Source: Campylobacter sp.
Lineage (GTDB): Bacteria; Campylobacterota; Campylobacteria; Campylobacterales; Campylobacteraceae
Assembly: GCA_022775765.1 (NCBI GenBank)
Contig: JALFKC010000050.1
Coordinates: 1-36,205, forward strand
Length of the DNA stretch: 36,205 nucleotides
Reading direction: 5' to 3'
Shown here in pieces: positions 9,820 through 17,745 of the stretch. Each line of letters opens with the position of its first letter. Positions within the stretch are counted from its first letter, which is position 1. Both the position numbers and the translations under genes were made by a program. The notes under the pieces were generated by a model. The model searched no databases. It had not been told where the DNA came from and was given only the letters and a program-made list of their open reading frames with translations.

Positions 9820-10830
9820 ATGAAAAAGATTTTATTTTTGATTTTAACTATAAATTTGATGATGGGAGATGCGATGAAAGAGATTTACCTTGCAGGTGGA
9901 TGTTTTTGGGGTGTTGAAGGGTATTTTAAACAGCTTGATGGAGTTACAAAAACTACAGTGGGTTACGCAAATGGCGATAGCGAAAACACAAGCTATTATG
10001 AGCTAAAACATACTGGTCACGCTGAAACTCTAAAACTAGAGTATGACCCAAAAATTATCACACTTGATGAAATTCTAGCTCATTTTTTTAGGATAGTTGA
10101 TCCAACCCTGCTAAACCGCCAAGGCAACGATATTGGCACGCAGTATAGAAGTGGGATTTATTATGTAGATGAGAGTGATTTAAAAGCGATAAACCAAGCC
10201 ATTAAAATTGAACAAACTAAGTATTCTAGCCCAATACTCACAGAAGTTCAAAAGCTTGAGAATTTTGTAGTTGCCGAAGAGTATCATCAAGACTATTTGG
10301 ATAAAAATCCTAATGGATATTGCCATGTGGATTTAAGCCTTGCAAAAGTGCCACTAGAGAGCAAAAGCACTAAATTTAAAGGTGGTAAATTTGAAGATTT
10401 TCAAAAACCAAGCAAAGATGAGCTAAAAAACACTCTTAGTGAGATTTCATACGCAGTTACACAAGAAAATGCAACTGAGAGGCCATTTTCAAGCAAATAC
10501 GATGAGTTTTTTGAGAATGGAATTTATGTTGATATAGTAAGCAAAGAGCCACTTTTTAGCTCAAAGGATAAGTTTAATTCAGGTTGTGGGTGGCCAAGTT
10601 TTGCAAAATCCATCAAGCCTTTAGAGATTAAAACCGATTTAAGTTATGGAATGATTAGAGATGAAGTTAGGTCAAATTTGGCTGATAGTCATTTGGGGCA
10701 TGTTTTTGATGATGGGCCAAGCGAATTAGGTGGCTTAAGATACTGTATCAACGGGGCTGCACTTGAGTTTATCCCATATGAAAAAATGGATGAGATGGGC
10801 TATGGCGAGTATAAAAAATTTGTAAAATAA
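9820..10830 (+). CDS. msrAB: Fused peptide methionine sulfoxide reductase MsrA-MsrB
   Basis: The enzyme repairs both S- and R-methionine sulfoxide in oxidised proteins. MsrA occupies about 20-175, with [11 protein letters not shown] (catalytic C28) and a distal cysteine in [11 protein letters not shown]. MsrB occupies about 205-330, with [19 protein letters not shown] and the catalytic [11 protein letters not shown] near the C-terminus. Starting at 9820 adds a short hydrophobic N-terminus ([18 protein letters not shown]) that resembles a signal peptide and would place the enzyme in the periplasm, but no ribosome site precedes it. A second ATG at 9874 (M19) has GGGAG five bases upstream and would give a cytoplasmic form. 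It is followed after 10 bases by the Sel1 gene. Confidence 0.92.
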
Positions 10831-12734: not shown

Positions 12735-14854
<2,120 letters not shown>

Positions 14855-14866
14855 GAAAGGACGCTT

Positions 14867-15418
14867 ATGAAAGTAAAATTACCGCATGTTCCCTATATTG
14901 CAAGAAAGATTGCTATTGATATGCTAAACTCAGGTTTTATCAAATTTGACGCAGGCATTGAAGCGGTGAGCGAAGTAGCGAGTGAAATTCTAAAAGATGA
15001 TGTATTAAAAGAGCGTGCGATTGATGAAAAAGTAAGGGGAATTTTAGAAGAAAAAGAAGAAGATATGGATATGTACGGCGTAGATAGAAGGGATCTATTT
15101 TGGATGGTAAAAAGACGCCTTGCTAATGAGGGTGAGTTTTTGCTTGATTATCAAGAAAGATATGGAGCAATCTCTCACGCTATCCTTGAAGCGGCTTGGA
15201 AAAAGGGCTATATTGACTATAAAGTTTCAGAAAATAAAGCCAAAAATATCATCTATCAATCCATAAAATCATATCTTAAAAATTACGAAAAAATCGAAGA
15301 TATAGTCTATGATAAAATTTCCAAACTCACAAGAAAGCTTGATGAGGGAAGCGTGGAGTATGATTTGATGTTTGAGAAGCTCTATGAAGAAGAGTTAAAA
15401 AAGAAAGGATTGATATGA
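14867..15418 (+). CDS. DUF507 family protein
   Basis: A cytoplasmic, highly charged helical protein of 183 residues with no signal peptide or membrane segment. The opening MKVKLPHVPYIARKIAIDML, the central VRGILEEKEEDMDMYGVDRR, and a final run of charged helices ending EEELKKKGLI fit the DUF507 family found in Campylobacterota and some other Gram-negative bacteria. No biochemical function is known to me. The gene follows purA closely (GAAAGGACGCTT ribosome site). It overlaps the next ORF by 4 bases (ATGA), so it is translationally coupled to the CarA-like domain. Confidence 0.75.
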   Translation: MKVKLPHVPYIARKIAIDMLNSGFIKFDAGIEAVSEVASEILKDDVLKERAIDEKVRGILEEKEEDMDMYGVDRRDLFWMVKRRLANEGEFLLDYQERYGAISHAILEAAWKKGYIDYKVSENKAKNIIYQSIKSYLKNYEKIEDIVYDKISKLTRKLDEGSVEYDLMFEKLYEEELKKKGLI

Positions 15419-15858
15419 AAGCGGCAGTTTATCTAAGTAGTGGAGAGTTTTTTGAGTGTGAGGCTTATGGCAAAGGCGGTGAAGTGTGCGGTGAGATGGT
15501 CGCAGTAGATAATCTATTTGACTATTCTAGTGTGCTTTGCGATGAAAAATATAAAAACAAGGTGCTTTTATTTTTGCCCTCTCAAATTGGAATAACAGGT
15601 GTAAATAATGAGATTAAAGGCAAAAATATGCAGGCAGCTTGTGCGGTGGCTAGGGTTTTTGATAAATTTACATCAAATGATAAAGCCACTAAAAGCTTAG
15701 AAGAGTTTTTGGTCAAACAGGGCAAATTTATGCTTGGTGGAGTAGATACCAGAGCACTTCATCAAATTCTCATCAAAAACCCAGAGACAAAAGTGGCGAT
15801 TTCAACTATAAATTTTGACAAGGCCACGCTTAGGGAAAATTTGCAAAATTCATTATGA
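15415..15858 (+). CDS. Orphan CarA N-terminal domain protein
   Basis: The 147 residues align with only the N-terminal domain of carbamoyl-phosphate synthase small subunit. They start MKAAVYLSSGEFFECEAYGK, continue with QIGITGVNNEI, then FLVKQGKFMLGGVDTRALHQ (CarA: GI.GIDTRALTR) and VAISTI. The class I glutamine amidotransferase half, with its Cys-His-Glu triad, is absent. Next comes a membrane protein gene with no remnant of that half between them. The gene overlaps both neighbours by 4 bases (ATGA), which argues for a maintained gene rather than a recent deletion. It cannot hydrolyse glutamine. A binding, scaffolding or regulatory role toward CarB or another partner is possible but unproved. 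Confidence 0.75.
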   Translation: MKAAVYLSSGEFFECEAYGKGGEVCGEMVAVDNLFDYSSVLCDEKYKNKVLLFLPSQIGITGVNNEIKGKNMQAACAVARVFDKFTSNDKATKSLEEFLVKQGKFMLGGVDTRALHQILIKNPETKVAISTINFDKATLRENLQNSL

Positions 15859-16526
15859 ATGAACTAAATTTATTAAATATCGCACTGATGTCGTTTTTGC
15901 TTAGTTTTGGGCATTGTGTATTTATGTGCGGTGGGTTTGTTTTGGCCTATAGCACAAAATTAGCCAAAAAAACTAAGAACGAGTTTGTGATTTACTCTTT
16001 TTGCTACCATTTTTTTAGAGTTTTGGCCTATGTTTTGCTTGGGCTTGTGGCTGGTTTTGTTGGAAGCATAGTTAGTTTTAGTGTAGTAGCTAGCGGATAT
16101 ATTAAGTTTGTAGTTGGTATGTTTTTGGTAGTTCTTGGACTAGGGCTTATTTTTAGGGGTGAGATTTTAAAATTTATAGAAAATGATAAAATTTGGTCTA
16201 AATTTTTACAAAAGCCTACTAAATTTGCTATGAGTTCAAACTCACTCAGCGGATTTTGTCTGCTTGGGTTTTTAAATGGCTTTTTGCCGTGCGGGGTTGT
16301 CTATACATTTCTTGGTATGACAATTATGGCAAATAGTGCATTTTATGGGGCTTTGATAATGTTTGTATTTGGCATTTGCACAATGCCTGTGATGATTGGG
16401 ATTGGCTTTGGGGCGAAAATTGGCTTTGAGAAATTCAGTAAATTTTCGCTTTATATTTCTGGGGCATTAATCATAGCTTATGGGCTATACAGTGCGTTTA
16501 TGGGGTTTATGCAAGCAAATGGATAA
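15855..16526 (+). CDS. Sulfite exporter TauE/SafE (DsbD-like) family membrane protein
   Basis: An inner-membrane protein of 223 residues with about six hydrophobic segments. It carries the two motifs of this branch: SFGHCVFMCGGFVLAYST at about 17-34 and GFLNGFLPCGVVYTFLG near 140-156, arranged as an inverted duplication. Such proteins commonly sit beside cbb3 oxidase assembly genes in Proteobacteria. The conserved His/Cys positions suggest metal or thiol handling rather than sulfite export. It overlaps the CarA-like gene by 4 bases and the kinase gene by 8 bases. A role in copper supply or redox maturation of the downstream cbb3 oxidase is inferred from context. Confidence 0.75.
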   Translation: MNELNLLNIALMSFLLSFGHCVFMCGGFVLAYSTKLAKKTKNEFVIYSFCYHFFRVLAYVLLGLVAGFVGSIVSFSVVASGYIKFVVGMFLVVLGLGLIFRGEILKFIENDKIWSKFLQKPTKFAMSSNSLSGFCLLGFLNGFLPCGVVYTFLGMTIMANSAFYGALIMFVFGICTMPVMIGIGFGAKIGFEKFSKFSLYISGALIIAYGLYSAFMGFMQANG

Positions 16527-17745
16527 GACAAAAATCAAATTAGAGCAGTATCTTTATGCAATAGAAAAGAGCAATATCGTCTCAAAAACCGACCCAAAAG
16601 GGCTCATAACCTTTGTCAATGATGAGTTTTGCCAAATAAGTGGGTATTCTAAAGAAGAGTTGATTGGTTCAAATCACAATATTATTCGTCACCCAGATGT
16701 TGGCAAAGAGACATTTAGGCGACTTTGGGGGACTATTCTTCACAAACAAGTCTATAAAGGTATAGTAAAAAACAGAGCCAAAGATGGTAGAGCGTTTTAT
16801 CTAAATGCTACAATAATACCGATTCTTGATGAAAATGGCGAGATTGAGGAATTTGTGGCGATTAGGCACGATGTAACTGAGATTATCAATTTAAACCGCA
16901 ATCTTTTGCAGACAAAATCACAGCTTAAGCAGCTTAACGAAGAGCTCGAAGATAGAGTAAAAGAACAAACCAAAGAGTTAAAAGAGCTAAACTCAAGCCT
17001 TGAAGATAGAGTTAAGGCTGAAATAGCCAAAAACGAAGAGAAAAACCGAATAATGTTTCAACAGTCTCGCCTTGCAACTATGGGAGAGATGATTGCTAAT
17101 ATTGCTCATCAGTGGCGTCAGCCATTAAATGAGCTAAGTTTAGTGATATATAATCTCAAAATTTCAAGAGAGAAAAAAGATGAATTTGACTCATTTTATG
17201 AAAAATCCAAAAAAATCATAGCTAGTATGTCTCAAACTATTGAAGATTTTAGCAACTTTTTTAAAACTGACAAAAATAAAGATGAATTTTTGGTTAGTGC
17301 TTCAATCCACGATGTTGTGTCGCTTATTGGTGCTACTTTGACTAAGCTTGATATAAATTTAGATATAAAACAAGAGTTTGATTGTTATGTTTATGGGCTA
17401 AAAAGTGAATTAATGCAAGTTTTAATGAACTTAATTACTAATGCAAAAGATGCTTTATTAAAAGAATATGGTATAATAAAAAAAGTAATTACAATTACAG
17501 TTTATAAAAAGGATGAATTTGTTTGCATAGATGTCAATGAAAATGCAAGTGCAATCCGACCTGAAGTGCTTGATAGAATTTATGAGCCATATTTTACTAC
17601 CAAACACCCAAACTCAGGAACTGGACTTGGACTTTATATGAGCAAGATGATAATAGACAATATGCGTGGATATATGGAAGTTAAAAACTTAGATAAAGAT
17701 GTTTCTTTTATAATAAAACTACCAATCATAAAAAAGGAGAAATGA
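16519..17745 (+). CDS. PAS-domain sensor histidine kinase linked to cbb3 oxidase genes
   Basis: A soluble kinase of 408 residues without membrane segments. The PAS domain at about 8-115 contains FVNDEFCQISGYSKEELIGS and HNIIRHPD, the Aer-like pattern associated with flavin-based redox sensing. A coiled coil at about 130-185 contains a duplicated LEDRVK unit. The HisKA box is IAHQWRQPLNEL with H197, followed by the N box NLITNAKDAL and the G2 box GTGLGLYMSK. The G1 box reads ENASAI (341-346) where DNxGGI is usual. I chose the ATG at 16519, overlapping the TauE stop, because an earlier in-frame ATG lies inside the TauE gene. The gene overlaps the response regulator. Confidence 0.88.
   Translation: MDKTKIKLEQYLYAIEKSNIVSKTDPKGLITFVNDEFCQISGYSKEELIGSNHNIIRHPDVGKETFRRLWGTILHKQVYKGIVKNRAKDGRAFYLNATIIPILDENGEIEEFVAIRHDVTEIINLNRNLLQTKSQLKQLNEELEDRVKEQTKELKELNSSLEDRVKAEIAKNEEKNRIMFQQSRLATMGEMIANIAHQWRQPLNELSLVIYNLKISREKKDEFDSFYEKSKKIIASMSQTIEDFSNFFKTDKNKDEFLVSASIHDVVSLIGATLTKLDINLDIKQEFDCYVYGLKSELMQVLMNLITNAKDALLKEYGIIKKVITITVYKKDEFVCIDVNENASAIRPEVLDRIYEPYFTTKHPNSGTGLGLYMSKMIIDNMRGYMEVKNLDKDVSFIIKLPIIKKEK

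Follow-up and report, generated by a model that had tools for sequence, protein, structure and literature searches.

A carA gene trimmed to its CarB-interaction domain points to a glutaminase-free carbamoyl-phosphate synthetase in Campylobacter

Results

The window analysed here, a 36,205-nucleotide stretch of Campylobacter sp. DNA, carries on its forward strand at 15,415–15,858 an open reading frame (ORF) of 147 amino acids, with an ATG start and a TGA stop, which corresponds to a carA of which only the N-terminal S1 (CarB-interaction) domain is left. Its sole Pfam match is PF00988 (CPSase small chain, CPSase domain; residues 6–124, E 3e-20, 72.7 bits against a cut-off of 27), and this Pfam search found no amidotransferase domain in the 147 residues. 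The ORF covers only positions 2–141 of the 361 in the CarA profile TIGR01368 and scores 68.3 bits, below the curated cut-off of 307. An AlphaFold2 model is a confident fold (pLDDT 86.8), for which Foldseek returned Escherichia coli CarA as the top match (TM 0.91, E 3e-12, rmsd 1.5), followed by human CPS1. Residue 147, the last of the chain, is the point at which the linker to S2, the glutaminase domain, would start, placing the cut at the S1/S2 boundary. The ORF overlaps by ATGA both the stop of an upstream gene for a DUF507 protein (14,867–15,418, forward strand; PF04368, E 2.6e-64, and synteny) and the start of a downstream gene for a DsbD_2 family membrane protein (15,855–16,526, forward strand; PF13386, E 1.8e-43, and synteny), and its codon usage (0.198 per codon) is typical of the neighbouring genes (0.166–0.298), with the other frames negative and shuffled sequences never above −0.146. 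It is a real coding ORF, and the original prediction, made from the letters of the window, was right that only the first CarA domain is present, that the glutaminase half is absent and that both neighbours are overlapped.

These three genes belong to a conserved neighbourhood, flanked on one side by purA (adenylosuccinate synthetase; 13,604–14,854, forward strand; ORF and conserved order) and on the other by a gene read as a PAS-type sensor histidine kinase (16,519–17,745, forward strand, with an upstream start at 16,480 in the ORF list; assigned from the ORF, its conserved order and its sequence). This kinase is the last conserved neighbour on its side, a response regulator and cco genes lying beyond. 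The order (purA) DUF507–carA–DsbD_2–histidine kinase, with a full-length carA, was found across the Campylobacteraceae and out to Sulfurospirillum; as a scan of genome contigs with the S1 protein gave no match, DUF507 was used as the anchor of the slot. The S1 ORF occupies exactly the ancestral carA slot and is the sole carA in its genome, which identifies it as the trimmed carA itself, an orthologue. Of the two origins first proposed, a diverged paralogue or a trimmed replacement, the second is thus retained and the first dropped, and nothing points to the further suggestion of a nucleotide-linked regulator. Elsewhere in the window (9,820–10,830), a 336-amino-acid ORF reads as a fused MsrA–MsrB methionine sulfoxide reductase with a signal peptide.

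The window's genome (G000; 1.80 Mb, a 93-contig draft, 100% complete) was searched for the remaining genes of carbamoyl-phosphate metabolism, as the original prediction had proposed for carA and carB. A search with the S1 protein matched only itself, and TIGR01368 matched, besides the S1 ORF, only GATase domains belonging to other enzymes. A complete CarB (1396 bits over its full length) is encoded on a different contig from S1, and two transcarbamylase-family genes (OTCase/ATCase) are present. No arcC-like carbamate kinase was found in the 13 genomes searched, G000 included, so that carbamoyl phosphate must come from CarB. Six GATase-type ORFs were recovered (a TrpG–TrpD fusion, GuaA, PyrG, HisH, PurQ and a PfpI-family protein), all assigned to other pathways. 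A CPSase-type glutaminase (a class I GATase with the catalytic Cys and His) is absent from the ORF, from the DNA downstream of it and from the rest of the genome.

Full CarA is present in 135 of 153 genomes of the family. Among the 14 genomes compared in the window's genus (g1), seven encode full CarA (G067–69, G073–76), G000 has S1 only, G065 retains an S1 remnant with stops and frameshifts, no S2 and an intact CarB, and in four (G066, G071, G072, G077) the next gene follows DUF507 with nothing in between. In the remaining genome, that of C. portucalensis (G070), carA is lost and carB, OTCase and ATCase were not found either. A second S1-only ORF, of 148 amino acids, occurs in G058 and G062, two near-closed genomes (2–3 contigs) of another genus-level group, where it is nested among species with full CarA. 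Close relatives therefore do not all carry full-length CarA; the finding that the original prediction had named as counting against it was the opposite one, homologues in close relatives that are full-length CarA throughout. In a sample of 250 Campylobacterales genomes (≥95% complete), which did not contain G062 and included five other genomes without a CarA match, the S1-only pattern was recognised only in G058 and the window's genome. CarB is kept in all CarA-reduced species except G070 and the draft G130.

Trees place the G000 truncation apart from that of G058 and G062, indicating that the cut at the domain border arose at least twice. A single truncation in one clade of the CarA-reduced g1 species was rejected by two trees, of the neighbouring genes and of CarB L3–L4 (AU p 0.016 and 0.019), in a test made after the fact and on long branches. 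The G000 truncation probably arose separately from the losses in its congeners, while the number of truncation or loss events inside g1 is uncertain; that of G058 and G062 is separate from these.

Several further observations concern the slot and its equivalents elsewhere. The DsbD_2 gene is also absent from the slot in L097 (G065) and L095 (G071), and the histidine kinase directly follows the S1 remnant in the former and DUF507 in the latter. In G070 (L104/L101), about 250 bp of non-coding DNA is left in the carA slot, and the loss seems to take in the entire carbamoyl-phosphate branch, from which auxotrophy for arginine and pyrimidines is predicted. Genus g5 (L073/G129, L074/G128, L080/G127) has no CarA and an extremely divergent, long-branched CarB adjoined by an ATCase/OTCase-family gene, as would be expected if an acquired carB–transcarbamylase pair without a glutaminase had taken the place of the CPSase. 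In genus g19 of family f8 (G159, G175, G200 and others), the best CarA match reaches only E ~1e-80 and falls below the TIGR01368 cut-off in many genomes, this CarA being either divergent or partly reduced.

Comparison of the S1 sequences of G058 and G062 gave 21 synonymous and 11 nonsynonymous differences, with a dN/dS of 0.126 (bootstrap 0.04–0.25) that is in line with the values for DUF507 (0.07), DsbD_2 (0.17) and CarB (0.06) in the same pair, and a branch model estimated omega at 0.089 (LRT against 1, 47.8). These rates indicate clear purifying selection on the 148-residue S1, assuming that the truncation was already present in the common ancestor of the two genomes, as their shared stop position suggests. 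The S1 of G000 shares 31–37% identity with the CarA S1 of relatives and is diverging much faster than its neighbours; the omega of 0.004 obtained for it in a codon branch test was set aside because the branch is saturated, at its upper bound. In an alignment with 19 full-length CarAs, most of the invariant CarA residues (FNTS..G..E...PS.AGQF..MPE) are lost from codons 30–57 (15,502–15,585, forward strand). The residue equivalent to E. coli Ser47, which we take to be part of the CarA glutamine pocket, is Lys45 in G000 and Ser in G058 and G062.

Because the window's S1 has diverged so far, slow decay is the main rival to its retention as a partner of CarB: the domain would be a relic of the S2 deletion, drifting to a functionless pseudogene while CarB works alone on ammonia. 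The complete loss of S1 in several congeners, the stops and frameshifts of the G065 remnant and the low identity of the G000 domain, in which only 26 of 52 CarA-invariant sites are kept, are all consistent with such a course. However, these invariant sites are kept more often than the others (27 of 95; p 0.012), and in simulations of neutral drift to 36% identity the frame stayed open in 1 of 3000 runs, rising to 0.1–3.5% when part of the divergence was constrained (3.5% being reached with constraint down to 50% identity). The gene-like codon usage, the intact ATGA coupling and the purifying selection on the orthologous S1 of G058 and G062 also argue against decay, which we regard as unlikely.

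CarB has also changed where S2 is missing; 559 of its columns are invariant among 30 genomes with full CarA (the divergent CarB of g5 was left out of this comparison). In G000, 33 of 270 such columns are changed in L1, the carboxyphosphate domain (E. coli CarB 1–400), against 3 of 211 in L3 (p 2e-6). The same bias is seen in G058 (8 of 270 against 0 of 211; p 0.01) and in species lacking S1 (34–47 of 270 against 5–14 of 211), while controls with full CarA, each left out in turn, presented 0–6 changes and no L1 bias. The changes cluster at 227–230, 255–284 and 337–352, in the domain where CarA docks and ammonia enters, and residues 488 and 535–540 are also among those changed. Arg265, presumably in the wall of the ammonia tunnel, is replaced by Glu in G000 and by Lys or Thr in S1-less species; Phe348 is Ile in G000, Arg in G058 and G062, and changed in some S1-less species. 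Human CPS1, which is ammonia-dependent and still has S2, keeps the equivalents of both. Sites changed in S1-less species only (e.g. Arg361Lys) might mark the S1 contact, although shared ancestry confounds this reading. CarA is known to contact the carboxyphosphate and oligomerisation domains of CarB (PMC6245113).

All of the ATP-grasp and catalytic residues checked in the CarBs of CarA-reduced species are intact, and the combination of no working glutaminase with both ATP-grasp sites intact is that of an ammonia-dependent CPSase. The L1 signature is absent from the CarBs of the drafts G010, G133, G143 and G149 and can be taken to tell real CarA losses from assembly gaps; on this basis, the absence of CarA in G010 and G143 is probably a gap.

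These CarB changes, matching the state of CarA and located in the domain facing it, also bear on a second alternative, in which S1 would have been repurposed away from CarB, for example as a regulator of the purA/respiration operon. Its coupling to the DUF507 and DsbD_2 genes and the loss of many CarA-specific residues could be read in that way, but the neighbourhood is the ancestral one of carA, with nothing new around S1, and the fold is still that of CarA S1, making repurposing improbable. Shared glutaminase subunits exist in nature (TrpG/PabA), and another amidotransferase might similarly feed glutamine-derived ammonia in trans to S1–CarB; this is highly improbable given that all GATases of G000 are committed elsewhere, with TrpG fused to TrpD, that the S1 stretch around the presumed glutamine pocket is lost, including its Ser47 equivalent, and that CarB Arg265 is Glu. 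Lastly, an assembly or sequencing error hiding the S2 half, a concern already raised in the original prediction and suggested by the draft state of G000, has a negligible chance of explaining the locus, where S1 is coupled to the genes on both sides within one contig and no S2 trace follows it or appears in genome-wide searches, the same truncation point recurring in the near-closed genomes G058 and G062.

Discussion

The reading that we consider likely is that the window's genome encodes a glutaminase-free, ammonia-fed CPSase, in which the trimmed carA has been kept as S1, a non-catalytic partner of CarB. That role, one of those first proposed for the ORF, is the best-supported function for S1, based on selection on S1 in the G058/G062 lineage and on the L1 changes in CarB. 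Binding of S1 to CarB, the use of ammonia as substrate and a shielding or bracing role for S1 are what we infer from these patterns.

In the mechanism that we propose, carA has lost its C-terminal glutaminase half, and the CPSase would be composed of CarB and a stand-alone S1. With no glutaminase feeding the tunnel, free ammonia would enter CarB at the carboxyphosphate (L1) domain, and CarB would make carbamate, phosphorylate it in L3 in the normal way and so provide for OTCase and ATCase. S1 may act as a structural lid or brace over the L1/L2 surface at which it docks in full CarA, holding the enzyme in its active shape and/or protecting the site of carboxyphosphate formation. In some congeners, CarB may have adapted further and S1 been lost; as several of them lack S1 altogether, it is dispensable for CarB function there. 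Campylobacters live on amino-acid deamination, so that high internal ammonia is plausible. With ammonia as substrate, the large subunit of E. coli forms carbamoyl phosphate only at very high concentrations (PMC6245113), which implies that ammonia use demands adaptation or an ammonia-rich cell. An alternative entrance may admit ammonia to human CPS1 and may likewise be present in the enzyme of E. coli (PMC4655335). In C. jejuni, growth or colonisation is impaired by insertions in carA and carB (PMC5438104).

In its S1 sequence and fold, its genomic slot and the presence of a CarB partner in the genome, the ORF resembles bacterial CarA (TIGR01368; E. coli 1JDB/1C30), but the class I glutaminase domain (E. 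coli Cys269, His353) is missing in its entirety, and the stretch around the S1 residue of the presumed glutamine pocket has been lost. It is CarA by descent while failing the defining glutaminase feature of CarA. Vertebrate CPS I (human CPS1, 5DOT/5DOU) is likewise an S1-bearing synthetase, and its inactive glutaminase makes free ammonia its substrate. However, CPS1 is one fused chain that keeps S2 with a Cys-to-Ser change and needs N-acetylglutamate, whereas the enzyme described here has no S2 at all and its S1 is a protein of its own, of 147 residues, with CarB on another contig, so that this is not CPS I proper. In its working it most likely resembles CPS I-type enzymes, being glutaminase-free, although it is not a member of the vertebrate CPS I class. 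The minimal CPS of Methanobrevibacter smithii also makes carbamoyl phosphate with a reduced enzyme, but the reduction there affects the synthetase, which is a 41-kDa dimer (PMC6022934), while here it affects the small subunit and leaves CarB at full length. A carbamate-kinase-type CPS differs in requiring an arcC-like kinase, which is missing here. A parallel to the domain itself is a laboratory deletion: work by Guillou et al. in PNAS in 1989 reportedly isolated an 'interaction domain' of E. coli CarA, the N-terminal half that binds CarB without the glutaminase. In contrast to that construct, the present one is a natural gene, arisen more than once. A search of the literature accessible without subscription turned up no earlier account of an S1-only CarA.

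With somewhat less assurance than for the reading of this genome's CPSase itself, we favour the broader view that Campylobacter lineages have repeatedly made their CPSase ammonia-dependent by cutting carA at the S1/S2 border, with S1 a selected, stand-alone structural subunit of CarB in a two-part CPSase of natural origin (S1 + CarB) that is previously undescribed and a step toward CarB alone. The window's genus displays a metabolic amidotransferase being dismantled in nature, since full CarA, S1 only, decayed S1 and no S1 all occur within it. These species may serve as natural tests of the contribution of S1 to CarB, of the CarB residues that serve the glutamine tunnel only (Arg265 and Phe348, which change where S2 is gone), and of a bacterial CPSase turning ammonia-dependent, a change for which vertebrate ureagenesis is otherwise the best-known case. 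Species without S2 are predicted to be unable to use glutamine for carbamoyl phosphate.
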